DNA from: Kineosporia babensis
GTDB taxonomy: Bacteria; Actinomycetota; Actinomycetes; Actinomycetales; Kineosporiaceae
Assembly (NCBI RefSeq): GCF_021129305.1
Contig: NZ_JAJOMB010000032.1
Span: forward strand, 1-64,000
Direction: 5' to 3'
DNA: 64,000 nt
Part shown: piece after piece, positions 1 through 28,573 of the stretch
How positions within the stretch are numbered: the stretch's first letter is position 1
Layout of the letters: each line of letters opens with the position of its first letter
The notes under the pieces: model-generated
The model's database searches: none
Seen by the model: only the letters and a program-made list of their open reading frames with translations
Told to the model about the DNA's origin: nothing
Program-made: the position numbers and the translations under genes

Positions 1-3000
1 CCTCGAGGCCAAAGCCCATTCGCCGGGTGATGGATTGGTCGAGTTCCTGCTCGGCGACAATCGCCTCCATTCTCTGCCGTACTGCGGCTGAAAGCTCCGG
101 TCGTAAACCATCTACAAGCGCAGTCGCGAAAGCTCTTTCCAGGTCGGGGAAGGCTTCGAGCAGGGTGAGTTGCTGCTCGGGCCGCAGCGTTGTCACGAAC
201 CGGGACATCGCCACTCGCCAGCGGCCGGGGACGTCACTTCGGGTTTTGTTCGAGATAGAGGGCTCTTTGAGCCTGCGGCCTACCTGGATGATCAGCTGTA
301 CCTGGGCATCGACGGATCCGGGCTTCTGACCACGGATGCCGCGTGTGAGGAATCCGATGAGTGAGGCGACAACGTCGCTTCTGACTGGAGAGCAGAAGGC
401 CCAGCCGAGCATCTCGTCCAGACCGTCGGTACCGCAGGGGTGGGTGGCAAGTATCTGGACGAGGCTGCCACGGGCCTGCTGGGGCTCCGGAAGGTTGGGG
501 AGGTCGCCGGTCCCCAACTTAGGAAGCAAGGATCGCAGCCACTCCACTGCACGCTCGGCCATGTAGAAATCGTTCTCGACACCTCGCTCGGCGGCCAGAA
601 CTAGTGACGCCCGCATCACTGGATCGTGGGCGTTCTGATGCAGCACGAGTAGATCTGCCCATGGCGGCAGTTCGACGAGAGCGTTGGCATGCGGTAGGGC
701 GAGCAACCGCCCGGCGGCCCGGCGGACCTTTTCTCGGTCGCTTGCCAGCGCTTTCATCACGACTGGGGTTAGCTCACGACTGCGGAAACCCATCGGCGCC
801 CGCATGTCTGGCATGCCTTGCACGAGCCTTTCCAGCCGCAGCAGATCGCCGTTCGCACCGAGCAACTGGAAGAGGATGGCGGTCGCACGGGAGCGGGGGG
901 TGTTGCGGGCCTGCAGCACTAGGCTCTCTGTTGCGCTGTCCGACAGCGCACCCTCAACGAACAGGTCGTGTGTCAAGGCATCCTTAGCGCCATTGAGATC
1001 TGCGCCGTAGCAGCGCATCAGCAGGCGTAGGAGCCGGTCGAGGTCCAGCCATGGGGCCGAGGCTTTCTCGCCCGGACGTTGCACAGCCGGGGCGACCGCG
1101 GCCACGATCTCGGCCACCACCCACGAGGGCAGCTCAGGACGTTCGAGGGTGCGCCGGATAGTGTCGGCCCAGCGCTGCTGAAGCGTTTCCGGACTCCGGT
1201 GAGATGCTGGGAGACCTTCGGTGAGCAGTTGCACGGCGAGCTGGCGCATGTCGTTGCGCTCCGACGTTAGAGCTGGGACCAGCCAGCCCCGGTTAAGTTC
1301 ACTGAGCAGCGATGCCGTGTGCTGATCGGCCAGGAAACGAACGAGCGCCTTGATCGCCGACGGATGCTTGCTGCTTCCTAGCGCTAGCAGTGTGCCCCCG
1401 AAAACGGCCTGGTTCCAAGGAGCGGCTCGTTCTGTCGTCTTTCGCCCATCCAGGTGAGTTTCCCGAGGGTTGTGCAACGCGTGACTGATGAGGTGCACCG
1501 ATCCGGACATCTCGTTGATCAACTGCTGGGGGTCGCTGCCGTCGGCCAGTCGGCATTCGACCCGGCGGTTGTGGAGCGCAGCGTGAGCCAAGACCAGGCG
1601 CCCTTCGGGCGCGAAGTCGCCCACCAATTCGTCGGCCCAGTTACTGATCCGTGGCGCCAATGCGAGCGGTGCTGTGGCCAGACACTCGAGGATGAAGGCA
1701 AGATAGCTCTGTTGGCCGACAGCCTTGGCCCTGGAGCCGATCTCGCGTAACTGGGTGAGTACGACATCCGGGTCCGCCGACACGAACCGCGACAGAACCG
1801 CGGGTAGTTGGGTCCAAGAGGCCAGGGTGCCGCCGGTGACACCCTGCGTCTTGCCCGGTAGCCCAAGCTTGGGAAGAATTCCCACGACCTGGTGCGCCTG
1901 CTCGTCAACCATCCGAGAAAGAGTGTCGACCACTGCGAACCACGCGGTGTCGTCTCGAGCACAGCAAATGGCCAGGACAGCCAGATCGGCGGGCGCCATC
2001 GGGCGTCCGGGCCTGGGCAGCAGAGCGAGCATGTCGCGAATCACCGACGTGTGCACCCGCTCGTCTCGGATCACCTGATCGAGTGCAGGTCGTAGAGTCG
2101 GCCAACTGCCAGGAGTCTGGGCCGCCGTCGTCAGACACAGTCGCAGATGTGAGCCCAGTGCCTGCCCCGGCTTGGGGGAGTCAGCCTTCCCCGCTATGAG
2201 CCAGTCACCGAGAACATTCCGGGCCGCTGTTGTGGCGGCCACCCGATGCATAGGTTTACGCCATGCCCAGGTCCACATCTGTTCCAGTACCGACTTGATG
2301 AAGAAGTCCTGGGGCCGGGTCCGGGCGCGCTCCAGCACGAGGTCAAGTGCAGGCGAACCAGCCCGACTCAGCAATGCGCGAGCCGCCACATACTCGAAGA
2401 AGGTCTGGTGGAAGAACGAGAACTGCCCATGCGCATCTACACTGCCGACACCCCGGGCCGTCAACATCTGTACGTCGGTGCTCAGCCGACCCGGGACGTC
2501 TGACAAGACATCAGCTATCGCGACATCGGGCGTGCCTGCCCGCAGCATCTGCAGCGCGAGTTCGTCACACGTCGCCGAGCAGTCCGCTCCTGCTTCTTCG
2601 GGGACAGCTCCCGATCGCCATGCCCGGCGGTCAGTGAGTACTCTGTCGTCCCAGTACTGATCGAATAGGTCTGTTGCGTCGACTGTTTCTGGAACAGACT
2701 GAGGGCTGTACAACTCGAAGAGCATCCGCAGGGTTAGCGGATGCTGAGCGAGGGCTCCCAAGGGGTGGCGACGCACCACGGCCTGAACGAGTTGGCTGGC
2801 CAGTGTCGAGCTGTCTCCGGGGGTGCGGCAGTACTCCAGTGCGTGCGCCGCGACTGCGCGTTCGAATTCACCCTTTCCAACCTCACTGTCGTCTGTGGGA
2901 TCGGCGTGCTGCAAGGTGTCGGGGGTGACGTAGTCGGACAGAATCCGTTCCAAGCAAAGGGTGGGTACGCCTTCGCCGAGGTTGCGGGCACGGTTCAGGT

Positions 3001-3982
3001 CGTCGGCCAGCCGTTTGGCCTCCATTGGCCGTGCAGTCACCACCGTCGAGGCACCGGTGCCCAGTAGCACCTGTTTCAGAGCCAGGTAGCCGCGATCGTC
3101 GTTTACTACGATGTCAGCCGTATCGACCAGGAGCGTCGCCCGGTGCCCAGCGCGCAGGTCGGCCGAGATCGCGCCCTGCAGGTCGTCGACCCGCACCAGA
3201 GGTGACTCACCGGCCAGCCATCCCGCCTTGACGAAGTAGACCTCGTGATCCGGCTCAGCCAGCAAGGTAGTCGCCAGCCCCCAAAGCAGACTGGTCTTGC
3301 CCACCCCGCCGATCCCAGCCACGATTATCGGCGCATCGGGCATCCCATGGAGGAGAGACAGGAGATCCCTCTCCAGGTCGCGGTGAACGTAAAGGCGTGC
3401 TCCTCCTGTGGGAAGGAGAGCAAATTGCCTGTCCGACACGGCCCCGGCGTCGTCGAGGGCTTGTCTGCTCAGCAGGCGCAGGCGCGGCGCCGGAGAGTCA
3501 GTATTCAAGTCCACCGCCGGAAACTTCACCTCGGCCTGGCCCTCTGATCCCAACGTCGCCGTAGCTACCAGGCGAAGAGCCTCGTGACCGTCCAGACGTG
3601 ACAGATCGATCGAGATATAGGGCCTCAGAAGCGCCCCCAGCACACCGCCCTGGAAGATCACCGGGACTATACGCCCCGACCCCTGCCGTGGGCCACCGGT
3701 CAAAAGTGCGGTGATGGCGCTGCCGGCGAGGTAGTCCATCGGATCACGGCCGCCGACCACGAGCGCGACGCTTGCGCCACCGTTGACGGCGTCTGAAAGC
3801 TCGACCACCGCATTAGTGCCCGCCTGTGTCCATCCCTTGACCTCGTGGCCCGCCTGCCTCAGGGCCATCGTGAGCCAATTGGCCCGGTCACGGTCGAGAG
3901 CATCGTCGTGGTCATAACAGACCACATATCCGCCGGGGGCGTTGGAACGCAACGCTTCGGGACTCGACGCCACGCCACGCAT
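1..3982 (-). CDS. STAND NTPase: TIR-like N-terminus, NACHT ATPase, helical-repeat C-terminus (3' end outside window)
   Basis: One reading frame stays open for 1,327 codons from ATG at 3982 to the left edge, so the C-terminus is missing. An in-frame TAG nine bases upstream of the ATG fixes the start. Residues about 15-160 resemble a degenerate TIR fold (GYVVCYDHDD near the N-terminus; PYISIDLSRLD matches the TIR end motif). Walker A is GIGGVGKT at 223-230, Walker B is LLVDTAD with Asp287, and the NACHT winged-helix signature FSFFHQTFFEYVAARAL has its His at about 525. The remaining 800 residues are Leu/Ala-rich helices of HEAT-like character, a likely sensor. STAND proteins of this plan are known as antiphage or cell-death switches. 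That role is inferred here from architecture and from the helicase and TIR neighbours. The TIR-like part lacks an obvious catalytic Glu, so NADase activity is uncertain. Start-to-start distance to the divergent TIR gene is 45 bp. Confidence 0.88.
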   Translation of the reverse strand, partial: MRGVASSPEALRSNAPGGYVVCYDHDDALDRDRANWLTMALRQAGHEVKGWTQAGTNAVVELSDAVNGGASVALVVGGRDPMDYLAGSAITALLTGGPRQGSGRIVPVIFQGGVLGALLRPYISIDLSRLDGHEALRLVATATLGSEGQAEVKFPAVDLNTDSPAPRLRLLSRQALDDAGAVSDRQFALLPTGGARLYVHRDLERDLLSLLHGMPDAPIIVAGIGGVGKTSLLWGLATTLLAEPDHEVYFVKAGWLAGESPLVRVDDLQGAISADLRAGHRATLLVDTADIVVNDDRGYLALKQVLLGTGASTVVTARPMEAKRLADDLNRARNLGEGVPTLCLERILSDYVTPDTLQHADPTDDSEVGKGEFERAVAAHALEYCRTPGDSSTLASQLVQAVVRRHPLGALAQHPLTLRMLFELYSPQSVPETVDATDLFDQYWDDRVLTDRRAWRSGAVPEEAGADCSATCDELALQMLRAGTPDVAIADVLSDVPGRLSTDVQMLTARGVGSVDAHGQFSFFHQTFFEYVAARALLSRAGSPALDLVLERARTRPQDFFIKSVLEQMWTWAWRKPMHRVAATTAARNVLGDWLIAGKADSPKPGQALGSHLRLCLTTAAQTPGSWPTLRPALDQVIRDERVHTSVIRDMLALLPRPGRPMAPADLAVLAICCARDDTAWFAVVDTLSRMVDEQAHQVVGILPKLGLPGKTQGVTGGTLASWTQLPAVLSRFVSADPDVVLTQLREIGSRAKAVGQQSYLAFILECLATAPLALAPRISNWADELVGDFAPEGRLVLAHAALHNRRVECRLADGSDPQQLINEMSGSVHLISHALHNPRETHLDGRKTTERAAPWNQAVFGGTLLALGSSKHPSAIKALVRFLADQHTASLLSELNRGWLVPALTSERNDMRQLAVQLLTEGLPASHRSPETLQQRWADTIRRTLERPELPSWVVAEIVAAVAPAVQRPGEKASAPWLDLDRLLRLLMRCYGADLNGAKDALTHDLFVEGALSDSATESLVLQARNTPRSRATAILFQLLGANGDLLRLERLVQGMPDMRAPMGFRSRELTPVVMKALASDREKVRRAAGRLLALPHANALVELPPWADLLVLHQNAHDPVMRASLVLAAERGVENDFYMAERAVEWLRSLLPKLGTGDLPNLPEPQQARGSLVQILATHPCGTDGLDEMLGWAFCSPVRSDVVASLIGFLTRGIRGQKPGSVDAQVQLIIQVGRRLKEPSISNKTRSDVPGRWRVAMSRFVTTLRPEQQLTLLEAFPDLERAFATALVDGLRPELSAAVRQRMEAIVAEQELDQSITRRMGFGLE

Positions 3983-7088: not shown

Positions 7089-7298
7089 AGCAGGAGACCT
7101 GAGTGAACGGCTGGCTCGACGACGACCCCAGCGCCCCGACGACGATCGTCAGCTCTTCCTGGTGCGTCGCCAGCTCGCTCTGCTACGGATTGGATTGGCA
7201 CCGAGCAGCGGGAAGCGGCAATCGCCGAACTGCAGGGCCTGCTGGCTGACCTCGACCGAGCGCTGCCCGGCACAGCCTCCACGTCCCGACTCACGTGA
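7089..7298 (+). pseudogene. Short degenerate coding remnant
   Basis: Two frames give protein-like sequence that would join after a frameshift near 7187: DDDRQLFLVRRQLALLR in one, then DWIGTEQREAAIAELQG and LLADLDRALPGTAS in another, ending at TGA 7296-7298. The joined peptide would be a small helical protein of about 65 residues. The family is not recognised. Its stop overlaps the GTG start of the next gene, which suggests an old operon. Confidence 0.3.
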
Positions 7299-8032
7299 AT
7301 GGAACCCGCATGACTGATGACACCCTCGACGGGGCGGTGCCGGCCGATGATGCCGAATCCGACTCGAAAGCCCTTGCCTTGCTGGACAAGGCGATAGCTC
7401 TGCCTACGCCGCTGATCCGCAAGAACATCGCCCGGGCCCGGCAGCGCAATCCTGAGGCGAGCCCGGCTCAGGTCATCGCCAGCCTCGAGAAGATGTACGT
7501 CAGCGCCCTCACCGGTTCCGGCGCTGCAGTTGGAGGCACCGCGGCTGCTCCCGGCGTCGGTACCGGAGTAGCACTCGCCCTGACCGCCGGTGAGGTCCTC
7601 ACATCGTTCCAGGCGACCGCGCTCTACGCTCTCTCGATCGCCGAGATCCACGGAGTGCCGATCGACGAGCTCGAGCGCCGGCGGACCATCGTGATGGGGA
7701 TCATGCTCGGGGGCAGCGGATCCGGGACGATCGCCAAGATCTCCGAACGCACCGGACAGCACTGGGGCCGGCAGGTGGCAGCCAAGGTGCCCGCGGAGAC
7801 GCTGAAACAGATCAACAAGGTGCTGGGCAAGAACTTCGTCACGAGGTACGGCACCAAGCAGGGGATCATTGTGCTCGGCCGGGTCGCCCCGTTCGGTATC
7901 GGTGCGGTGATCGGCGGTGGCGCCAACGCCGCAATGGCGGCCCTGACCGTGAAGGCCAGCCGGCGGGCGTTCGGCCCTGCACCCGCCGAATGGCCCGACC
8001 AGGCACCGAGCATCCCCGAATTGGAGAGCTGA
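7295..8032 (+). CDS. EcsC-like helical protein, function unknown
   Basis: 245 residues from GTG at 7295; ATG at 7310 is an equally possible start. After an acidic N-terminus comes a helical part (IRKNIARARQRNPEASPAQV), then a Gly/Ala-rich hydrophobic segment (GSGAAVGGTAAAPGVGTGVA, then LALTAGEVLTSF) and a second hydrophobic Gly-rich segment near the C-terminus (GRVAPFGIGAVIGGGANAAM). This layout is common in actinobacterial proteins related to EcsC, which associate with membranes. The reaction is unknown. The stop overlaps the ATG of the following helicase fragment (TGATG), which implies cotranslation in the ancestral operon. Confidence 0.65.
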   Translation: MNGTRMTDDTLDGAVPADDAESDSKALALLDKAIALPTPLIRKNIARARQRNPEASPAQVIASLEKMYVSALTGSGAAVGGTAAAPGVGTGVALALTAGEVLTSFQATALYALSIAEIHGVPIDELERRRTIVMGIMLGGSGSGTIAKISERTGQHWGRQVAAKVPAETLKQINKVLGKNFVTRYGTKQGIIVLGRVAPFGIGAVIGGGANAAMAALTVKASRRAFGPAPAEWPDQAPSIPELES

Positions 8033-8532: not shown

Positions 8533-11500
8533 ATGCCAGACCACGCACTAACCGAGTCGCCCGGCAGCACGGTAAAGATCGACCTCGCCGCGCAGCCTGT
8601 GCTCAGTTATGCGATGGCCAACAGCGATATTCCCGTGGTCGCTCAGGTGGGCCTGGCCAGCACGGCCAGTCGCCCGGGAGCGGTGCTGCGGATCCTGATC
8701 CAGGACGAGCGGGGTCAGGTGACCAGGCCGTTCGAGCAGGTCGTGGATCTGGTGGCGAACCGCAGGGTCAGGATCGACGACCCGAAGGTGCGGCTCGACC
8801 CGGCGGTCATGCTGCAGATCGACGAGCAGCGACCGGGTCTGCTGACCGCCGAGGTGGAGTGGCATGGTCAGGTGCTGGCCAGCCACGCTGAGCCGATCCG
8901 ATTGCTGGCGGCCCGGCAGTGGCTCAGGCACGAGGCCATCCAGTTTCTCAGTCTGGAGATTCTGGCCGCGTTCGTGATGCCGAACGATCCGGCGGTGAGC
9001 AGACTGCTCAACGAGGTCACCGAGTGGCTGCAAGAGCGAACTGGTGACGCGTCGCTGTACGGCTACCAAGCTGACGCTCGACGGGTGGACCTCACGGTCC
9101 AGGCCGTTTTCGAAGCGATGCAGGCTCGCCGGATCAGCTACGGCGAACCGCCCGCAAGTTGGTCCGAGTCTGGCATGGGTCAGAAAGTTCGTACGCCGCA
9201 CGAGGTGCTGGAGGGAAGGATCGGGACCTGCCTCGACACGACCGTGGTGATGGCCGCAGTTCTGGAGCAGGCTGGCATCCATCCGCTGCTGTGGGTCGTC
9301 GAGGGGCACGCCTTCCTCGGGTACTGGCGGCATGAGCGGATTCTCGACGAGATCACCCAGACCGGCGCCGGGGACCTGGTGAACCGGATCGACCTGGACG
9401 AGATCCGGTTGGTCGAGACCACCGCCCTGACCAAGCCCTTCGACCCGGGGCTGTACGAGCGGAGCACCCGCAGCCCGGTCCAGAGCCATCTGTCCGGGGA
9501 TCTGAGTAACGTGCTGGGAGTAACCGACGTTCTGAGTGCGCGCCTGCGCAAGATCGTTCCCCTCCCGGCCTCGACGCGTGGTGAGGACGGCCAGGCCCAG
9601 GTTGTTGTCTACGAGCCCAGGCAGCACTCCACCGCCCCGGCACCGCGGGCCGAGCCCCGGCGGGCGCGTGCGCACACCCGTTCGGTGAAACCGGTGCCGC
9701 CGCGTGTGCAGGTCTGGAAGAACTCGCTCCTGGACCTGAGCACCCGAAACCGCCTGATCGACCTCAAGGCTGAGCATGGCGTCGGTCTGAATGTGCCGAC
9801 CGGTCATCTGGGGCTTGTCGAAGATGCCCTTCACGAGGGCGGGGCCCTGCACCTGCTGCCCGGCGACCGGATCGACCAGGTGCACCTGGCGCGCGGTGGA
9901 CGGCTGCCGGAGGACCATGTCGCCCGGATCTTCGCGAGCAACCACCAGCTCTACACCACGCTTACCCACGGTCAATACATCACGCGACTGCGCTCTTTGG
10001 CGCAGAAGGCCCGCGTCATCGTCGAGGAGACGGGAGCCAACAACCTCTACCTGGTGCTCGGTACCCTGGTCTGGAAGCACGATGGCAAGGACTTGCGTTC
10101 GCCGTTGATCCTGGTGCCGGTTCGGCTGATCCGCCGAGCTGGCGACTACCACCTCGAGATCGACGAAACTGGAACCAGCACGCCGAATTTCTGTCTGCTG
10201 GAGAAGCTCTACCAGGTACACGGGCTCAGGGTTCCTGGCCTCGCTGAGCCGGTTCTCGATGGCGCGGGGATCGATCTGGATGCGGCGGTCCGGGCGATGC
10301 GGGTGGCGCTGTCGGAACACGGTCTACCCTTTCGGGTCGATGCCGCGAGGGCCGATCTGGCGATCCTGCACTTCGCGAAATTCCGGATGTGGAAGGACCT
10401 GGACGAGAACTGGGAGCAGCTCTCGGTGAATCCGCTGGTCCATCATCTGATCCACAGCCCGGCACAGCCCTTCCGGGACAGCGTGGAACCCCCGAAGAAC
10501 TCAATCGACCTGGACGAGCTGGATGCCGGTTGCCCGCTACCGGGCGATGCCTCGCAGCTCGGCGCCGTGGCCGATGCTGTGGACGGCCGCACCTTCGTGC
10601 TGGAAGGCCCTCCGGGAACTGGTAAGTCCCAGACGATCACGAACATGCTGACCCGGGCGGTCGTCGAAGGACGTCGCGTGCTCTTCGTCGCCGAGAAGCG
10701 TGCTGCCCTGGACGTGGTCCGGCGGCGGCTGGACGAGGTCGGGATGGGCCCGTTCTGCCTGGACCTGCACGACAAGGGCAGCAAGCCGGTTCAGGTCCGG
10801 GCCCAGATCAACGAGTCCCTGAACCATCACGTGGTCGTTGACGACCAGGACCTGCGGGCCGCTCAGCAGGATCTGCGCTCCTCACGCCGGGTTCTGTCCC
10901 GGTATGCCCGCGGGCTGCACGAGACGAATTCCCTTGGCTATTCCTTCTATTCGTCGCACACCGAGCTTGTTGCCCTGGGCGAGGGGCCGGTGCTGCCGGT
11001 GCCCCGCGATTTCCTGCACGCGCCGGAGGCGCCGGCGAAGGTGGAGGCGGTCCGCGATCTGCTGCGCGTGCTGCCTGACAAGGCTGATGTCACGATTCCG
11101 GAACGGCAGCATCCGTGGGGCTTCGTGCTGCTGGACGATCCAGCCGATCTCGATGTCGAGCGGGTCCGTCAGGCTGCCCTGGCCGTGGACGAGAGCCTTG
11201 GCCATCTCACTGATAGTGGCTATCTCACCGATGTTCTCGCTGCGGTGTGTTCCGTGGCGGAGCTGTCCGACCTGAGTGCCGTCATCAGGGCGTCAGGTGT
11301 GGGTCTTCGAATCATGGACGAGTCGCGCGGCCAACGATGGACGGATGCCTGCGCGTGGTGGATGGCTGAACTCGACTCGTTCCTTGCCGCCGGCCATCCG
11401 GCGCTGACGCTCGTTACTCCGGCAGCGCTCGACCTGAACTTGGCCGAGATCCACGCACATGCCGTGGAGGCGGGAGAATCCAGTGTCATCGGTCGGTCTC

Positions 11501-13071
11501 GACGACTGCGCGAAGTCGGGTCCCGGCTCGACCCCGTGCTGCGACCCGGTTGCGAGATCGCCGTTAAGGACGTCCTCGACCTGACCAGCGCTCTGCTGCG
11601 GCTTCAGACCGAGGTTCAGGGCTTGGCGCAGCAAGCTCGCAGCATTCCCGGAATCCAGGTACCGGGGGACTGGAACCCGTTCACCGAAGGTTCCCAGGAC
11701 CTCGTCCATCGTCAGATCGACTGGCTGCGGGACTTGGGCCGGGCCGTCGACCCGAACGTAGGTTCCGCCAGCCACCGGGTTTTCGTGGACCGCTTACGGA
11801 ACATCCTGCAGGCGGGCGAGTCGGTCGACGCGGCAGTGGTGGAAGCGATCGACCAGACTGCATACACGCTTCAGGCGCTCTCCTGGGAATGCGGCTCAAC
11901 TGAACAGATTCTCGAGTGGTGGAGCGGTGACGAAGGACTTCTGGCCGGATGGCGGGATACCAGAGCCGGGCGGGCGCTGTTCGATCCGGCCCTGCACAGC
12001 CTGCGTCGGTGGGTAGCCTTCCGGCAGGCACTGGTGCCACTGCGGAGCCTTCGGCTCGGGGAGACCTACGACGAACTGCTCACCGGGGTGGTCCTCGCTG
12101 ACGACGCGGCAGCGGCTTTCGAACGAGGGCTTGCTAGTAGCTCGCGAACTGAGCGCAGTGAGTCCAATCGACTGGACATCTTCGACCCGAAGGCGCACAA
12201 CCGTGCCGTGGAACGGTTCTCCGTGGCGTCCTCCACAGTCCGTCGGCACCTGAGAACTTCTCTGCCCGCACAAGTGCTGGCCCGCCGGTCGTTCGATGCC
12301 GATACGGCCACTGGGGACGCGGGGGAACTGCGCAAGGAGGTCCGGCGTCAGCGTGGTGGCGTGGGGGTTCGTGCGCTGCTGTCGAAGTACGGCGAGCTGA
12401 TCACCGAGATCATGCCCTGTGTCCTGGTCAGCCCGGACTCGCTGGCCCGGTTCTTCGAGAGCAGCGGCCAGATGTTCGATCTGGTGGTCTTCGACGAGGC
12501 CTCGCAGATCCGGGTGGCCGATGCGATCGGGGCGATGGGCCGCAGCAAGTCCGTCGTGGTGGTGGGCGACAGCAAACAGATGCCGCCCACCACATTTGCC
12601 CAGAGATCCTTCGGAGACGAGGATGACGACGAGGTGGTGGCCGCCGAGGCGGCCGCACCGGTCGACGAGGAAAGCATCCTCACCGAGTGCGTCGAGGCGA
12701 GAGTGCCGCAGAAGTGGCTCTCCTGGCACTACCGGAGCACCGACGAGTCACTGATCGCCTTCAGCAACCTTAAGTACTACGAGGGGCGACTGTCCTCGTT
12801 CCCCACACCGAACACGGCCGGACCGGACTCCGGGATCAGTCTGATCCCCGTGGACGGCGAGTACCTGCGTTCGGCGGCGGGCAAGCTGAAGCGCACGAAC
12901 CCTCAGGAAGCCATGGCCGTGGTCGCCGAGATCCGGCGACGGTTCGAGGACTCCGAGACACCACCGTCCATTGGTGTGGTGACCTTCAACGCCCAGCAAC
13001 GCACACACATCGAGGACCTGATCCGCGACAGCGGACACGAGCCGATGATCGAGGCACTCGATACCCGGTGA
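8533..13071 (+). pseudogene. DUF4011-type superfamily I helicase-nuclease, N-terminal part ending at an in-frame TGA
   Basis: ATG 8533 is preferred over upstream in-frame starts because the conserved N-terminal domain begins after it. There are 1,512 codons before TGA 13069-13071, and the same frame continues with family sequence to 14430. Order: an N-terminal immunoglobulin-like and transglutaminase-like part (GTCLDTTVVMAAVLEQAG with Cys233; EGHAF with His259), the DUF4011 region from about 394 (WKNSLLDLSTRNRLIDLK), Walker A GPPGTGKS at 692-699, a long helical insert, and Walker B LVVFDEAS with Asp1321-Glu1322. It then has QMPPTTF and the WHYRS box of UPF1-like helicases. Large DUF4011-helicase-nuclease proteins have been proposed as antiphage factors (Hhe-type). 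The family link is by recognition, not search. Loss of the last helicase motifs at the TGA would abolish activity. Confidence 0.8.
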
Positions 13072-14430
13072 CCGGAAGGACTGTTCGTCAAGAACCTGGA
13101 GAACGTCCAGGGCGACGAGCGGGATGTCATCCTGTTCTCCACCGGATTCAGCACGAACGAGAAGGGGGTGCTGCCCCGTAACTTCGGCCCACTGGTGTGG
13201 TTCGGTGGCGAACGTCGCTGGAACGTGGCCATCACCCGGGCCCGTCGGCAGGTTCTCGTCTTCAGTTCGTTCGCTCCCAGCAAGCTGAAGGTCGAGGCCA
13301 CGTCCGCGAAGGGAATCCAGGATCTGCGGGCCTATCTCGACATCGCGGCCGGAGACAGCGAGGTGCTCGCCAGCACCGTGGCCTTGGCAGCCGCACCTGA
13401 CAAGCACCGTGAACAGCTGGCCCGAGCGCTGCGGGAGCGGGGCCTGGTGGTGCAGGAGGTCTTCGGCCTTTCGGACTTCCGGGTCGAGCTGGCCCTGGCG
13501 GCGCCGGAGCGTCCCGGGCACTTCGTCGTTGCCGTACTTCTGGACGGTGAGGAGTGGCGCCGGCGGGCAACGGTCAGCGACCGGGACGGGCTGCCGGTCC
13601 AGGTACTGTCGAAGATGCTGGGCTGGCCGGCCGTGGAGCGGGTTTGGCTGCCCGAGTGGCTGGTCGAACCGGAGAACGTTCTCGACCGGCTCGAGGCGGT
13701 CACTCGCGAGGCGGCCCGTGCCCTTCCGGCACCTGTCCACGCAACCCCAGCGCCCTCGTCCTTCATTGGTACCCCCACGAAAACGAACGCCGACTTGCTG
13801 ATCGCCGGGCCGGCGGTGACACCGGCCAAGGCTCCGACGGCCACGCTTCTGCGCCGGATCATCCCGTCCGACCGTGTAATTCCGGGGCAGGAGATCTATT
13901 CGCCCTGGGAGCCCAGGGTGGTCGGAGAACGGAAGGTACTCGACCGGCTCCCGACCGCGCTGCCGGTGGTGCTCGAGTTGATCGAGGAGATCGTCGAGAC
14001 TGAGGGGCCGATCCATCAGGAACGTCTGGCCAAGCTCATCGCTGCGGCCTTCGGCATCAGCCGGCTCATGGGCGGGCGGGCGGAGAAGATCTATGCCGCT
14101 CTGCCGTCCTCGTATTTTCAGGAACCGGGCGAGCCGTTCCTGTGGCCCTCGAAGCTGTCACCGGCGACGTGGACCGGATTCCAGCGCCAGAAGAGCGTCA
14201 AGCCAAGGCCGCTGGAGCAGATCAGTCATCGGGAGATCGGTAACGCGATGGTCGGGATTGCCCGGTTCACGGCTGGGCTTCCCCGGGATCAGCTGCTGCG
14301 GGAGACGCTCGGGGTGTTCGGAGCCCGGCAGATGACCGAGCGGACGGAGAAGCGCTTGCTGGAGTCGCTGGAGGCGTGCCTGCGGCGCGAGCTTCTGATC
14401 GAGCAGCATGGGCTGGTCCTCGTCGATTGA
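13072..14430 (+). pseudogene. C-terminal part of the DUF4011 helicase: last helicase motifs, nuclease-like domain, DUF3320
   Basis: This is in the same frame as the preceding part, separated only by the TGA codon. It opens with FVKNLENVQGDERDVILFS and GGERRWNVAITRARRQVLVF, helicase motifs V and VI. A REase_MTES_1575/Vsr-like module follows (QLARALRERGLVVQEVFGLS, then FRVELALAAPERPG), then a DUF3320 end (LMGGRAEKIYAALPSSYFQ). The usual Asp of the nuclease SxFRIDLAV box appears as Glu (FRVELAL). A separate start could lie at GTG 13168, but it would lose motif V, so an independent protein is unlikely. The stop codon TGA at 14428-14430 is half host, half insertion sequence (GA is the first dinucleotide of the IS). 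Confidence 0.75.
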
Positions 14431-14480
14431 GGTTCCCCCGAAACGGTGGACAGGGGGTTAAGCAGCGTTGGCTGTGCCTG

Positions 14481-15443
14481 TCAGGCTGGCTCAAAGCGGA
14501 TGGGGCTGAGCCCTCCTGCTCCTGAGTGACGACGTTCATGATTGAACCATCTGATCCATTTGTCAACTCCAGCAACGAGTTCCGCCTTCGTGGCGAAGGT
14601 CCGACGGTAGTAGTACTCGTGCTTGAACGTGGACCAGAACGACCCCGCGGCAGCGTTATCCCAGCAGATCCCGGTCTCACCCATCGACCGGAGCAGGTCG
14701 TGCCGGCCGCAGGCGGCCGCGGTCACGGCGCCGGTGAACTCCCCGCCTCGGTCCGAATGCAGGATGGTCTTGGCCACGTTCTGGCCTTCGCGGGTGCGGG
14801 TGGCAACGGCGGCGTCGATGGCGCGGGCGACCATGGGCGCGTCGAAGTGGTCGTCGATGGCGTAGCCCTGGACGCGGCGGGAGTGCCCGTCCCGGATCGC
14901 GCACAGGAACATGTTGCCCTCGCCGCAGGGCAGGTAGGTGATGTCGGTGAACCACGCGGCGTTCAGGTGGCCCTGGTCGAACTGCCGGCCGACCAGGTCG
15001 GGCGGGAACGACGCGTCCGGGTCCTGCACGGTGGTGCGGACTTTGAACGTTCGAGGGCTGATGCCCTCGATCCCGATCTCGGCCATGATCGCCGCGACGG
15101 TCTTGGCGTTCACAACCTCACCGCGATCGCGCAACTTGTCGGTGATCCGTGGGGATCCGTAGGTCCCGTCGGACTCGGCATGAATGTCGAGGATCTTCAC
15201 CGTGAGATCGGCTCGTCGCTGTTGCCTTTGGGTCGGCTCGGATGCGTCACGGCGCTTGCGCCACTCGTAGAAGCCCGATGTGGACACCTTCAGCAATCGG
15301 GCCATGCGCAGCACGGAGAAGCTCTCTGACCGCTGCTGGTCATGCTCGTGTTGAGCTGGCGTGGCGTCGTGCAGGTTTGTCTGCGGGCTGGTGATCTGGG
15401 CAGTTTGTTCGGGTTCTTGCTCGGGGCAGGCGTACTTCGCCAT
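14481..15443 (-). CDS. IS3-family transposase OrfB, catalytic Glu replaced
   Basis: 320 residues. The N-terminal part carries the HTH_21-type linker (SGFYEWRKRRDASEP, TYGSPRITDKLRDRG), the C-terminal part the rve/DDE core. Catalytic Asp residues are visible in WFTDITYLP and ILHSDRGGEF. At the third position the usual N-A-x-A-E-S reads DNAAAGSFWSTFKHEY, with codon GGG at 14645-14643, so the essential Glu is Gly. The related copy at 26.3 kb keeps AAAESFW. The start ATG shares one base with the orfA stop (TGATG), so translation is coupled. With Gly at this position the element is probably unable to move by itself. Confidence 0.85.
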   Translation of the reverse strand: MAKYACPEQEPEQTAQITSPQTNLHDATPAQHEHDQQRSESFSVLRMARLLKVSTSGFYEWRKRRDASEPTQRQQRRADLTVKILDIHAESDGTYGSPRITDKLRDRGEVVNAKTVAAIMAEIGIEGISPRTFKVRTTVQDPDASFPPDLVGRQFDQGHLNAAWFTDITYLPCGEGNMFLCAIRDGHSRRVQGYAIDDHFDAPMVARAIDAAVATRTREGQNVAKTILHSDRGGEFTGAVTAAACGRHDLLRSMGETGICWDNAAAGSFWSTFKHEYYYRRTFATKAELVAGVDKWIRWFNHERRHSGAGGLSPIRFEPA

Positions 15444-15763
15444 CAGTTCGAACCGCGTGGATTCGTCTTCGACACAAAGTACGCCGAAGCTTTTGCCAGG
15501 AACTGATTGTCCTTCTCCAGCTCAGAGACCCGGCTACGTAGCCGCAGCAACTCGGCCCTCTCGGCGGCGTCCAGGGGCGCTTCCCCGACCGCCTCGGCGG
15601 CGGTGACCCGGCGGCGTTCGTCCTTGACCCAGACGCTCAGCATGCCTGGGTCGATCCCGAGTTCCCGAGCGACCTCGGCGATCGTCCGTCCGGAGTCGAT
15701 CACGCGGTGGGCAGCCTCGATCTTGTACTCGGTCGTGTACGACCGGCGCTTACGAGGAGGCAT
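15443..15763 (-). CDS. IS3-family transposase OrfA (HTH_Tnp_1)
   Basis: 106 residues beginning MPPRKRRSYTTEYKIEAAHR. A helix-turn-helix (SGRTIAEVARELGIDPGMLS) binds the IS ends, and a leucine-zipper-like segment (AELLRLRSRVSELEKDNQFL) provides multimerisation with OrfB, as in IS3 family members. Its length is normal. It ends in the overlap with orfB. Confidence 0.85.
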   Translation of the reverse strand: MPPRKRRSYTTEYKIEAAHRVIDSGRTIAEVARELGIDPGMLSVWVKDERRRVTAAEAVGEAPLDAAERAELLRLRSRVSELEKDNQFLAKASAYFVSKTNPRGSN

Positions 15764-15890
15764 ACGGACATCCTTCCAGCAGGATCGGCGATCCTGCTAA
15801 ATCGGTGTCCACTCTCTCGGGGGAACCTCAGCTATCCACCGTCCGAGATGCGCGCGTGGTCACTGGGAGCATGTGCATCTGGTGGCTCGT

Positions 15891-22514: not shown

Positions 22515-24170
22515 TTAGCTCATCCGCACGGGTTCATAGCTCGTGGCTTGTTTCGGATCGCCCTCGCCGCGGTAGCGGGGGATTTCCGGGTAGGCGTACA
22601 CCGGTCGTGTCGCGGTGACCTCGCCCAGGGCCACGTCGAAACGCTCCGCGACCATCACCTGCGGCTCCTCGCCGTCTTCGACCCACTTCATCAGTGCTGT
22701 GGTTCCTGCCGCGAGACTCACCCCGGCCCCGGCCCCGATGCAGTAGCCGTGGATATCGCCGTCGCTGAGGAACATTCGGACGAAGGAGGAAGCTTCCTGC
22801 TGACCGCCGGCGCGCTGGACCACCCCGAGATAGAAGTTCAGCACCTCCTGGTAGCGGAGGACCTCATCCTCGATAGCTTGAGTGATGAGAAGCTTGCCGC
22901 CGGAAGCGCGGAAGGACGTGAGGTCATCGTCCGAGTCGATCGCCGCGAGGCGCTGAGCCCCTGTATCGCAGAGGTCCCAGAAGCCATCGAGGGTCAGATC
23001 TTCCCAACTGGCCTCGGGGTCTTCGGCTACCCACCGAACATGATTGACAGCGATCGACGGGGTGACCTTGAGCTCACCCTCAACCTCGGTGAAGAGGACG
23101 CTCCCGACGCCAGGCTTCTCTGGGGAGGTCCAGAACTTGGAGCCAGGTCGCGGCGCAGCGGCCAGCTGCCTGCCGTCCTGGGCCCGGGGCCCGTCCCAGA
23201 TCGCCTGCATGGTCACGGCATCGATCTTGGTCACTTCACCTGCCGTGGTCGGGGTCCCGATCACGGTCTCGGGATCGAACTCGATCGTCTCGGCTGCACT
23301 GAGGAATCCGTCCCGAACCCCGTCGGCACCGTCCAGAGCCTCGAGCACAGCTGCCCGGAAAGCGTCCAGTTTCGCCGGCGGCAGGATGTTGTCGTGCAAT
23401 TTCATCGCCAGCGCAGGCCACAGAATGGCGATGTTGAGCGTATTCCAGTTCATAGCGGGGTCCGAGATCCAGATCCCGTCGAAGTCTCCCGAATGGCGCT
23501 GCGCGGATGCCAGCCCCTGCCGCCCACCGCCGGAACCTCCGACATAGTAGGAGTATTCGGGACCCGTGCCGTACAGGGCCACGATGACGGCCTTGGACAC
23601 CTCTGCCATGTCGTGGGTGCTGCGATGAACCCAGTTCTCGATCAGATCCCAGTCCAGTGTGCCGGAGTCCTTGCGCAGAGCCCAGTCATTGACCCGGTCA
23701 TCCACGTTTCCCGCGTTCGTTGCAGCAGTCACAAATCCGTTGCGCAGAGCGACGGGCATCGTCATCGCCCGGCATGTCGGCACTTCGAACCACAGCGGCC
23801 CGGTGAGGCTTCCAGCACCCCCGGTGGCGAGGAACCGGCCGTTCCAGGCGAGAGGAGCCCACACGTAGAACGTCACGGTGTGCCCGCCAGGGGCGCGCTG
23901 CTCGATCCGAATGTCGCAGAACGCCGGCAGGTTGCCGATCCGCGGCGCCGCCTCGGCTGTATGGACGGGCTGCAGGGGCGAGGCTGGAACAGTGAACTCC
24001 CCGCTGTGATTCACCGAGGCCGACGTGACTGTGAGGCCCTCGAACCCTGCCAGCGCCTCCTGGAGCACCTCAACCGAACAACGCCGGGCCACCTCCTCGT
24101 CAGCCGAGAGGCTATCGGTGACCACCCACTGCGTCAGGCCAGATTTGCCCAAATGAGGCTTGCGTGCCAT
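22515..24170 (-). CDS. Tannase/feruloyl-esterase-family hydrolase
   Basis: 551 residues from ATG 24170 (MARKPHLGKSGLTQW); a further ATG at 24215 is possible. No clear signal peptide, so it is probably cytosolic. The nucleophile elbow is YYVGGSGGGRQGL (G-x-S-x-G-G). The fold also shows FLATGGAGSLTG near the N-terminus, and the C-terminal DGDIHGYCIGAGAG carries the catalytic His. It would cleave aromatic or phenolic esters, with substrate unknown. The TetR at 24410 diverges from it across a perfect palindrome. A truncated paralogue lies at 25452. Confidence 0.82.
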   Translation of the reverse strand: MARKPHLGKSGLTQWVVTDSLSADEEVARRCSVEVLQEALAGFEGLTVTSASVNHSGEFTVPASPLQPVHTAEAAPRIGNLPAFCDIRIEQRAPGGHTVTFYVWAPLAWNGRFLATGGAGSLTGPLWFEVPTCRAMTMPVALRNGFVTAATNAGNVDDRVNDWALRKDSGTLDWDLIENWVHRSTHDMAEVSKAVIVALYGTGPEYSYYVGGSGGGRQGLASAQRHSGDFDGIWISDPAMNWNTLNIAILWPALAMKLHDNILPPAKLDAFRAAVLEALDGADGVRDGFLSAAETIEFDPETVIGTPTTAGEVTKIDAVTMQAIWDGPRAQDGRQLAAAPRPGSKFWTSPEKPGVGSVLFTEVEGELKVTPSIAVNHVRWVAEDPEASWEDLTLDGFWDLCDTGAQRLAAIDSDDDLTSFRASGGKLLITQAIEDEVLRYQEVLNFYLGVVQRAGGQQEASSFVRMFLSDGDIHGYCIGAGAGVSLAAGTTALMKWVEDGEEPQVMVAERFDVALGEVTATRPVYAYPEIPRYRGEGDPKQATSYEPVRMS

Positions 24171-24346
24171 TCGTTCACATTCCCTTCGTCGACCACGAGA
24201 TCCACGATGACCCACCGTTCGATGCGCCCGGGCCCCTCCGGGGAGGGCGTCGCGGTCGTGGGGGCGACGCCCAAACCTGGGGTCGGAGCTGCCCCGGTGC
24301 GGTCTCGGTCGCTCGCTACCTGCCGGAACGTTGGCCCCGGCAAGAG

Positions 24347-25451: not shown

Positions 25452-25817
25452 TCAGTTCCGCTCTGCCCGAACGTAACTGGCAGCCTCGGCTGGGTCACCC
25501 GAACCCGAGTAGACCGTGACCGAGGGGTAGGAGAACAGCGGGCGAGTGGCCACGACCTGGCCCGCTTGAGCGTCGAAGCGCTCGGCAATCAACTCCTGCG
25601 GCGCCTCGTCGTGCTCCACCCACCGAATCAGGGCCATCGTGCCGTCGGCAAGTGTCAGGCCGGGCCCGGGCCCGGTGCAGGAGCCGTGGATGTCACCGGC
25701 CGAGTGGAATAACCGGAAGAACTCGGAGGCTGCTTCCAGACCCCCTGACTTCTCGACGACCTCCTCGAAGTAGCTGGTCGCCATCGGGAAGAGCACCACC
25801 TCGTCGGCGGGTGGCCT
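25452..25817 (-). pseudogene. C-terminal 120 residues of a second tannase-family gene
   Basis: Aligns with the end of the tannase at 22515: SAGDIHGSCTGPGPGLTLAD versus SDGDIHGYCIGAGAGVSLAA, then ERFDAQAGQVVATRPLFSYP versus ERFDVALGEVTATRPVYAYP. The N-terminal three quarters, including the Ser elbow, are missing. Similarity stops at about 25817, where IS3 transposase sequence begins, so the loss is linked to that insertion. Confidence 0.75.
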
Positions 25818-25827
25818 GGCTGCCTGA

Positions 25828-26529
25828 ACGTGGTGAGGTCGTGAATCCTAAGACCGTCGCGGCGATCATGGCCGAGATCGGGATTGAGGGCATCAGCCCT
25901 GGCACGTTCAAAGTCCGCACGACAGTCCAGGATCCAGACGCAGCCTTCCCGGCCGACCTGGTGATCTGGCAGTTCGACCCAGGACGATTGAACGCCGCGT
26001 GGTTCACCCGACATCACCGACCTGACCTGCGGTGAAGGCGACATGTTCCTCTGCGCGATACGGGACGGGCACTCGCGCCGCGTCCTGGGCTACGCCATCG
26101 ACGACCATTTCGACGCACCTATGGTCGCCCGGGCCATCGACGCCGCCGTGACCACCCGCACCGCCCGAAGGCCACACCGTGGCCAAGACCATCCTGCACT
26201 CGGACCGAGGCGGGAAGTTCACCGGCTCTGTGACGGCGGCCGCCCTTGGGCGGCACGACCTGCGCCGGTCGATGGGTGAGACCGGGATCTTCTGGGATAA
26301 CGCTGCCGCGGAGTCGTTCTGGTCCACGTTCAAGCACGAGTACTACTACCGCCGGACCTTCGCCACGAAAGCGGAACTCGTTACTGGAGTTGACACATGG
26401 ATCCACTGGTTTCAATCATGGACGTCGTCACTCTGGAGCAGGAGGGCTCAGCCCCATCCGCTACGAACAGACCCTGACAGGCACAGCCAAGGCTGCTTAG
26501 ACCCCTGTCCACCGTTTCGGGGGAACCTC
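25828..26529 (+). mobile_element. Degraded IS3-family fragment (orfB 3' part and right end)
   Basis: From RGEVVNPKTVAAIMAEIGIE onward the plus strand encodes OrfB related to that of 14481-15443 but broken by at least three frameshifts (near 26020, 26165 and 26400). The DDE residues HSDRGGKF and AAAESFW are still readable. It ends with the same terminal sequence, complement of GAGGTTCCCCCGAAACGG, at 26529. orfA and the other end are missing. Confidence 0.8.
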
Positions 26530-26627: not shown

Positions 26628-28573
26628 GTGTGCCACGAGCACAGAGAGTGAGGTCAGTGATGAGGTAGGTGGCCTCGTTCGATGTGGTGCTGCGCAGGTG
26701 ATGAAGGTTTTGTGGCCCTTCGGGGCCGTTCTGCGAGGGACGGCTTCAAACCGCCTCGAGCTGCGTTGGCTGAAGACCGTCGTGGTGAGCGTCGAGGAAA
26801 AGGCGCACGAGATGCGTCAGGTGGGGACCGAGAAGATGAGCGCAAGCGAATCACTGCTGACGTGCCGAAAACCTATCAAGTGGCATCAGAACCGCGGATG
26901 TTGATATGCCCGCGGGATGAGTCTGGCGGATATCTCGCTTACTGGCCAGGCGGTGCCCGGCATGGAGGTGACATGAGCTCGGTCTGCGGCGTCTGCGTGG
27001 AACGTGGGAAGGCGTGTCCGGAAAATCGGAGCCTGGGTTGAGTTCTGGAGAGGGAGAGTTCCAAGCGAAACGAAAACGTGAGGAACGGAGTACCGTCGCC
27101 GGGCGCGCATTCGGACCGGCCCATAGTAGTGATGAACGGCCTGTAATGGGTCGGGAGCGAAGGGGTCGGGTCGTTCGTGACTGTGTTCGTCCGATCAACC
27201 GGGAAGCCCGGAAGGGCTGGCCGGGAGGAGTCGCGTGGACGAGTTGAAATCGTCAGGCAAGTCGTTCGATATTTCCAAGTGGGAAGTGTGGGAGGCATGG
27301 AAGAAGGTCAAGGCCAACAGGGGAGCGCCAGGCGTTGACGGCTGCACTGTGGACGATTTCGAGAAGGACCTGAAGAACAATCTGTATCGGGTCTGGAACC
27401 GGATGTCCTCGGGCAGCTACTTTCCGCCACCTGTGCGTGCGGTGGAGATACCGAAGGCGCATGGGAACGGGGTTCGGGTCCTTGGGGTTCCGACCGTGGC
27501 TGACCGGGTCGCTCAGACGGTGGTGGCAAGCAGGCTGGAGGCGGAGGTCGAGGCGATCTTTCATCCGGACTCCTATGGCTATCGTCCTGGGCGATCCGCG
27601 CTGGATGCGGTTGGGGTGTGTCGCACGCGTAGTTGGCGCTGGGACTGGGTTGTCGATCTCGACATCGAGAAGTTCTTCGACAGCGTCCCGTGGGATCTGC
27701 TCCTGAAAGCGGTGGAAGCGCATACCGACCAGCCGTGGGTTCTGCTCTATGTGCGGCGATGGCTTGCCGCGCCGATGCAGTCCTCGGACGGGGCGGTGCG
27801 CCAGCGGGATCGTGGAACCCCTCAGGGGTCAGCGGTTTCGCCGGTGTTGGCGAATCTGTTCCTGCACTATGCGTTTGACGCCTGGATGGCTCGTGAGCAT
27901 CCGGGCGTTGCGTTCGAGCGCTACGTGGACGACGCGGTGGTGCACTGCGTCAGCGAACGCCAGGCCCGCAAGATGGTCCAGGCGATTTCGGAACGGATGG
28001 TCGAGGTCGGGCTGCGTCTGCACCCGGCCAAGACGAGGATCGTGTACTGCAAGGACTCCAACCGGCCGGGAACCTACCCGCAGAAGGAGTTCACGTTCTT
28101 GGGGTTCACGTTCCGTCCGCGCAAGTCGCGCAACAGAGCCGGCGTCAGCTTCGTCCGGTTCCTGCCCGCGATCAGCAAGGACGCCCTGAAAAGAATCAGT
28201 CGGCAGGTCCGTTCATGGCGGATCCACCGGCGCACCGGTCAATCCTTCGCCCAGATCGCGCAGGCCATCAACCCGGTCGTGCGGGGCTGGATGAACTACT
28301 ACGGTGCGTTCTATCGCACCGAGCTCCATGGTCTCCTGCGGCGCATCAATACCTACCTGGTGCGCTGGATCCGACGGAAGTACAAGCGGCTGGCCGGTCT
28401 TCGCAAAGCCCTGGCATGTCTGAACGGGATCTCCCAGAGATATCCCCGGATGTTCGTGCACTGGCAGTGGACCGCGAAAGCCTGGTGACCAGAACGACAA
28501 GAGCCCGGTGACGGGAGACTGTCACGCCGGGACCTGAGGGAGCCGGGGGCTGAGATGCCCCCGGCTACCCGCC
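26628..28573 (+). mobile_element. Group II intron, full length, antisense to an IS3-type transposase gene
   Basis: The 5' end GTGTG (26628) fits the GTGYG consensus. At the 3' end, domain V is CCCGGTGAC (28504-28512), loop, GTCACGCCGGG with a two-base GC bulge. Domain VI is GGGAGCCGGGGGC, loop TGAGAT, GCCCCCGGCT-A-CCC with bulged branch-point A at 28567. Joining 26627 to 28574 restores the transposase frame across the junction (LVG-DITYIP), which supports these limits to within a few bases. The 600 bases before the ORF carry the structured domains I-IV, for example GGCCCTTCGGGGCC and the run GGAGCGAAGGGG. The transposase is on the opposite strand, so splicing cannot repair its mRNA. Confidence 0.8.
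27235..28488 (+). CDS. ltrA: Group II intron reverse transcriptase/maturase
   Basis: 417 residues from GTG 27235 with GGGAGGAG seven bases upstream. RT motifs in order: NRGAPGVDGCTVDDF, VLGVPTVADRVAQ, FHPDSYGYRPGRSALDA, VVDLDIEKFFDSVPWD, RGTPQGSAVSPVLANLFL and the catalytic YVDD at 230-233. The maturase part (GIIM) shows VVRGWMNYYGAFYRTELHG and ends FVHWQWTAKAW. There is no HNH endonuclease domain, so target cutting would rely on other means, as in En-minus intron classes. All catalytic residues are present, so the intron may be active. Confidence 0.92.
   Translation: MDELKSSGKSFDISKWEVWEAWKKVKANRGAPGVDGCTVDDFEKDLKNNLYRVWNRMSSGSYFPPPVRAVEIPKAHGNGVRVLGVPTVADRVAQTVVASRLEAEVEAIFHPDSYGYRPGRSALDAVGVCRTRSWRWDWVVDLDIEKFFDSVPWDLLLKAVEAHTDQPWVLLYVRRWLAAPMQSSDGAVRQRDRGTPQGSAVSPVLANLFLHYAFDAWMAREHPGVAFERYVDDAVVHCVSERQARKMVQAISERMVEVGLRLHPAKTRIVYCKDSNRPGTYPQKEFTFLGFTFRPRKSRNRAGVSFVRFLPAISKDALKRISRQVRSWRIHRRTGQSFAQIAQAINPVVRGWMNYYGAFYRTELHGLLRRINTYLVRWIRRKYKRLAGLRKALACLNGISQRYPRMFVHWQWTAKAW

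Follow-up and report, generated by a model that had tools for sequence, protein, structure and literature searches.

Giant proteins that combine a transglutaminase-like domain, an SF-I helicase, a Vsr-family REase and a wHTH overlapping DUF3320, and that additionally carry a HEPN domain, are described in PMC3710099. There it is proposed from comparative genomics that such proteins target invading DNA without a modification partner. PMC10250203 reports that, in all P. aeruginosa isolates examined there, a defence hotspot is flanked by a gene with DUF4011, a further domain of the protein treated here. PADLOC lists a candidate defence family, PDC-S37, on which our literature search found no paper.

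The window analysed here, a stretch of 64,000 nucleotides of Kineosporia babensis (contig NZ_JAJOMB010000032.1), contains a gene whose predicted product is a member of this known giant family, with a putative transglutaminase-like region followed by DUF4011, SF1 helicase, MTES_1575/Vsr nuclease and DUF3320 regions (PADLOC PDC-S37). In its intact form the family probably acts in phage defence. The Kineosporia gene shares with the MTES_1575-type giant helicase-nuclease the SF1 helicase, the MTES_1575 REase and the DUF3320 (wHTH) region in the same order, and apparently also the N-terminal C and H motifs of the transglutaminase-like type. It differs by one in-frame TGA, whereas the described type is encoded in one unbroken frame. 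The type protein further has an N-terminal HEPN domain; for the Kineosporia protein this comparison extends to a Pfam search at E 1e-3, in which neither a HEPN nor a transglutaminase-like domain was listed.

Domain organization of the interrupted helicase gene

The gene extends from ATG 8533 to the TGA at 14428-14430 and is composed of the following parts:

8533-13071, + strand: 5' part of the gene (1,512 codons, then the TGA), with transglutaminase-like motifs, DUF4011, AAA_11, and AAA_12 up to two thirds of its length
13069-13071, + strand: in-frame TGA, codon 1513 counted from ATG 8533, a sense codon in 27/27 aligned full-length relatives
13072-14430, + strand: 3' part in the same frame, with the end of AAA_12 (VQGDERD, WNVAITRAR), the MTES_1575 REase and DUF3320

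Both parts lie in the same frame without a frameshift. Upstream, the frame is open for 1,548 codons from stop to stop, 1,512 of them between ATG 8533 and the TGA, and downstream it is open for 452 codons up to TGA 14428-14430. The interrupting TGA, which is followed by a C, is located in the second helicase domain between the GVVTFNAQQ and VQGDERD segments. The nuclease, the DUF3320 region and the WNVAITRAR motif, which we take to be helicase motif VI, are all encoded beyond it.

Pfam matches upstream of the TGA were obtained for DUF4011, AAA_11 (carrying Walker A GPPGTGKS and DEAS) and the first part of AAA_12, and downstream for the rest of AAA_12, the MTES_1575 REase and DUF3320, the latter two over their cut-offs. 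The AAA_12 profile itself is cut by the TGA, with positions 3-135 upstream (26.7 bits, just below the 27-bit cut-off) and 141-192 downstream (30.7 bits). Likewise, the PDC-S37 model matched both halves in register, with positions 7-1113 on the first (E 1.8e-174) and 1132-1540 on the second (E 1.8e-78); the aligned relatives encode this protein in one frame and the Kineosporia gene in two. The transglutaminase-like GTCLD and GHAF segments align in the rows inspected (10 of 28), all ten of which keep G.C.D and GH. When solved structures were searched with the part preceding the TGA, the only matches were weak ones to SMUBP-2 (E 0.003).

A copy from the same genus is open for 1,978 codons and colinear over residues 1-1964 at about 70%, with in-frame gaps only (18 and 5 gap columns). 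Together with the split of AAA_12 and PDC-S37 at the TGA, this colinearity demonstrates that the two open reading frames are a single gene interrupted once, rather than neighbours by chance. Frame, Pfam, PADLOC and same-genus alignment thus bear out the first-pass annotation, which had described a gene of about 1,965 codons that is free of frameshifts and keeps its frame across a single TGA. It had also regarded the sequence directly past the TGA as conserved in the family, which holds for the peptide after the stop; the interrupted residue itself lies in a variable loop.

Full-length relatives carry a sense codon at the stop position

Among 33 BLAST-matching open reading frames in the fetched loci, 27 were aligned, being retained if longer than 1,800 aa and above 600 bits, a filter biased toward intact copies. 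Left out were L056_0, L064_2, L040_7, L060_10, L063_8 and L049_14. At the position of the TGA all 27 relatives have a sense codon. The column is variable and adjoins a gap-rich loop; Asp is the commonest residue (14/27) and Cys does not occur (0/27). Without the length and score filter, 14 of 19 loci matched to query residue 1510 or beyond, and all 14 of these belong to the open ones. Of the 13 rows with E < 1e-40 other than the gene's own, 12 lie within one frame that is 1,849 or more codons long; the remaining row is from genome G024. This homologue, L083 (G024:C171) 902-2409, is on a fragmentary contig and matches in two frames with overlapping query ranges, which may be due to a frameshift, a tandem partial copy or a misassembly. 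A TAA in the G009 homologue was considered as a second lesion and rejected, as it is near the end of the open frame and looks like the gene's own end.

At about 70% the gene was found in only one other member of the genus (the genus search covered 6 genomes including its own, the family search 13). No match to it was obtained in viral contigs, one distant match in phage records, and only distant relatives among the 20 of 358 plasmid records listed. The sense codons of the relatives locate the lesion to the Kineosporia genome; they are no evidence that this genome lacks the stop. The proposal that related strains with a sense codon would refute the interruption is therefore unworkable, since 27/27 sense codons show a lesion and not an absent stop.

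An IS element has inserted at the 3' end of the gene

The region downstream of the helicase gene contains the following features:

14428-14430, + strand: terminal TGA of the helicase gene, identical with the first three bases of the left inverted repeat of the IS
14428-15830, - strand: IS3-family element of 1,403 bp, with 25-nt terminal inverted repeats at 14428-14452 and 15806-15830
14481-15443, - strand: orfB of the IS3-family element
15443-15763, - strand: orfA of the IS3-family element
25452-25799, - strand: tannase C-terminal fragment (Pfam tannase positions 384-489), adjoining the partial IS
25826-26529, - strand: inverted partial IS copy (positions 2-701), 89% identical to the IS at 14428-15830

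The inverted repeats of 25 nt have 88% complementarity, and the element presumably belongs to the IS3 family, as judged from its orfA/orfB layout and Pfam domains. It is inserted at the last codons of the helicase gene, so that its inverted repeat supplies the final TGA, which is newly described here. The protein of the window ends with ...LVLVD and the same-genus copy with ...LLLVVER, indicating that about two codons were lost to the insertion. The flanks of the IS (CGAT left, GCTA right) lack an exact target duplication, which could be explained by recombination between the two IS copies. This IS-driven rearrangement and the gene remnant nearby support the earlier description of the setting as a decayed island. 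A full tannase-like gene is located at 22515-24215, and a group II intron reverse transcriptase/maturase (RVT_1 and GIIM) at 27235-28488.

Both sides of the TGA are under equal constraint

In comparison with the same-genus copy, dN/dS was 0.267 upstream and 0.210 downstream of the TGA, at a dS of about 0.8-0.9. Private amino-acid changes, counted at columns in which at least 4 of 6 outgroups agree, amounted to 54 window-only versus 57 relative-only changes upstream and 12 versus 9 downstream. Hence, the lineage of the window has no detectable loss of constraint, and constraint is equal on both sides. Equal constraint without an excess of amino-acid changes indicates a stop that arose very recently, that is tolerated, or that is a sequence error. 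On the dS scale, any death of the gene would have to be very recent.

Recent nonsense inactivation as the most probable explanation

Taken together, the gene was probably inactivated recently by a single nonsense point mutation in a rearranged region, which affected a giant gene of the PDC-S37/MTES_1575 type. The mutation would have created the premature TGA at codon 1513, so that translation would end within the second helicase domain and yield a product without helicase motif VI, the nuclease and the C-terminal wHTH region. Neither half alone would be a complete helicase-nuclease, and the truncated system would almost certainly be inactive. The sense codons in 27/27 relatives and the Pfam and PADLOC matches that resume right past the TGA argue for inactivation, as do the IS that clips the 3' end of the gene, the inverted partial IS copy and the tannase remnant beside that copy. 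The otherwise pristine frame counts against it, because it fits a sequence error or tolerated readthrough equally well. Recent inactivation of a defence-type helicase is thereby the best supported of the three options that the first-pass annotation had named, its defence role being one that we infer. With ordinary nonsense pseudogenes near IS elements the gene has in common the single stop, the IS at its 3' end and a gene remnant nearby, but it differs in that its 1,965 codons show no second lesion other than the clipping at the 3' end, which suggests a very young pseudogene, if it is real. Since the interrupted residue lies in the variable loop, any amino acid inserted by occasional readthrough would probably be tolerated, and some full-length protein could be made. 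The locus would represent an ordinary kind of gene loss, in which a point mutation disables a large defence-type gene within a region that is mobile and rearranged. Gene-calling software would report this locus as two shorter proteins, each an incomplete helicase-nuclease.

Next in rank is a sequence or assembly error, in which case the gene would be intact in the living strain, with a sense codon at this position. The draft assembly consists of 89 contigs, the frame is otherwise pristine without acceleration of change, and all aligned relatives are intact, all of which would fit an error. However, a single wrong base in a consensus should be less common than a nonsense mutation arising naturally in a gene that is dispensable. 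In addition, ABC_tran matches of the same genome were scored for stops: 150 of 386 candidates were scored, and 150/150 were without a stop, so that neither a general reassignment of TGA nor a poor consensus is indicated, although these were the best-scoring matches and the test is mild. The assembly is thus not generally error-ridden. An error at this codon is less probable than inactivation, and we infer that the TGA is real in the living strain.

Functional readthrough, in which the TGA would be passed at a useful or regulated rate to give small amounts of the full protein, is unlikely. In its favour, constraint is no different in the frame past the TGA, the interrupted residue belongs to a variable loop, and the TGA is directly followed by C; UGA followed by C is a leaky context in E. 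coli. Over the 30 codons past the TGA, raw synonymous identity with the same-genus copy was 23/27, and about 0.9% of 30-codon windows are as high. With codon usage controlled, however, the z value was only 1.87 (3.3% of windows as good), and a pair of stop-free relatives gave 1.92. Folding of the 101 nt of RNA starting just before the TGA gave a z of -1.49, with 13/200 shuffles as good. As the stop is found in 0/27 full-length relatives, the codon score is matched by the stop-free pair and the fold is unremarkable, programmed readthrough is not favoured. Selenocysteine recoding was rejected: a search of the genome for tRNA-Sec (RF01852) gave six weaker matches and none over the Rfam cut-off (all 14 control genomes gave matches too, 5 of them over the cut-off), and the column is variable with Cys in none of the 27 relatives. 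The suggestion of regulated readthrough is consequently unsupported, the stop being private among the aligned relatives and accompanied by no stop-specific structure or codon signal. A related idea, that a leaky TGA newly acquired in the variable loop is tolerated and reduces, without abolishing, the amount of a costly and possibly self-harming defence nuclease, with UGA readthrough sustaining low full-length expression, is likewise unlikely. If the TGA were leaky on purpose, this would point to a defence nuclease dosed at the level of translation, but nothing here speaks in support of it.

Two working proteins that assemble from separately translated halves are very unlikely: the first in-frame ATG, GTG or TTG past the TGA is GTG 13168, from which a protein of 420 aa with the nuclease and DUF3320 could be made, but this start is 32 codons past the TGA and would drop the conserved VQGDERD segment, the break is inside the single domain AAA_12, and the split occurs in 0/27 full-length relatives, for which full length was itself the selection criterion.

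Neighbouring genes and contig-wide scan

A scan of codon-position GC for same-frame splits by a single stop gave 9 candidates in the 80.9-kb contig including the helicase gene, several of them antisense to other predicted genes; the scan is uncalibrated and was left out of the evidence. Upstream of the helicase gene, an EcsC-like open reading frame at 7295-8032 matched PADLOC PDC-S29 (E 8e-15). In the loci of the full-length relatives no BLAST hit to it was obtained beside the helicase, and it was therefore rejected as a constant partner. At the contig start, a large open reading frame (2-3982, - strand) runs off the end and has a weak TIR_2 match near its N-terminus (25 bits, below the 28-bit cut-off); it is possibly another defence gene.
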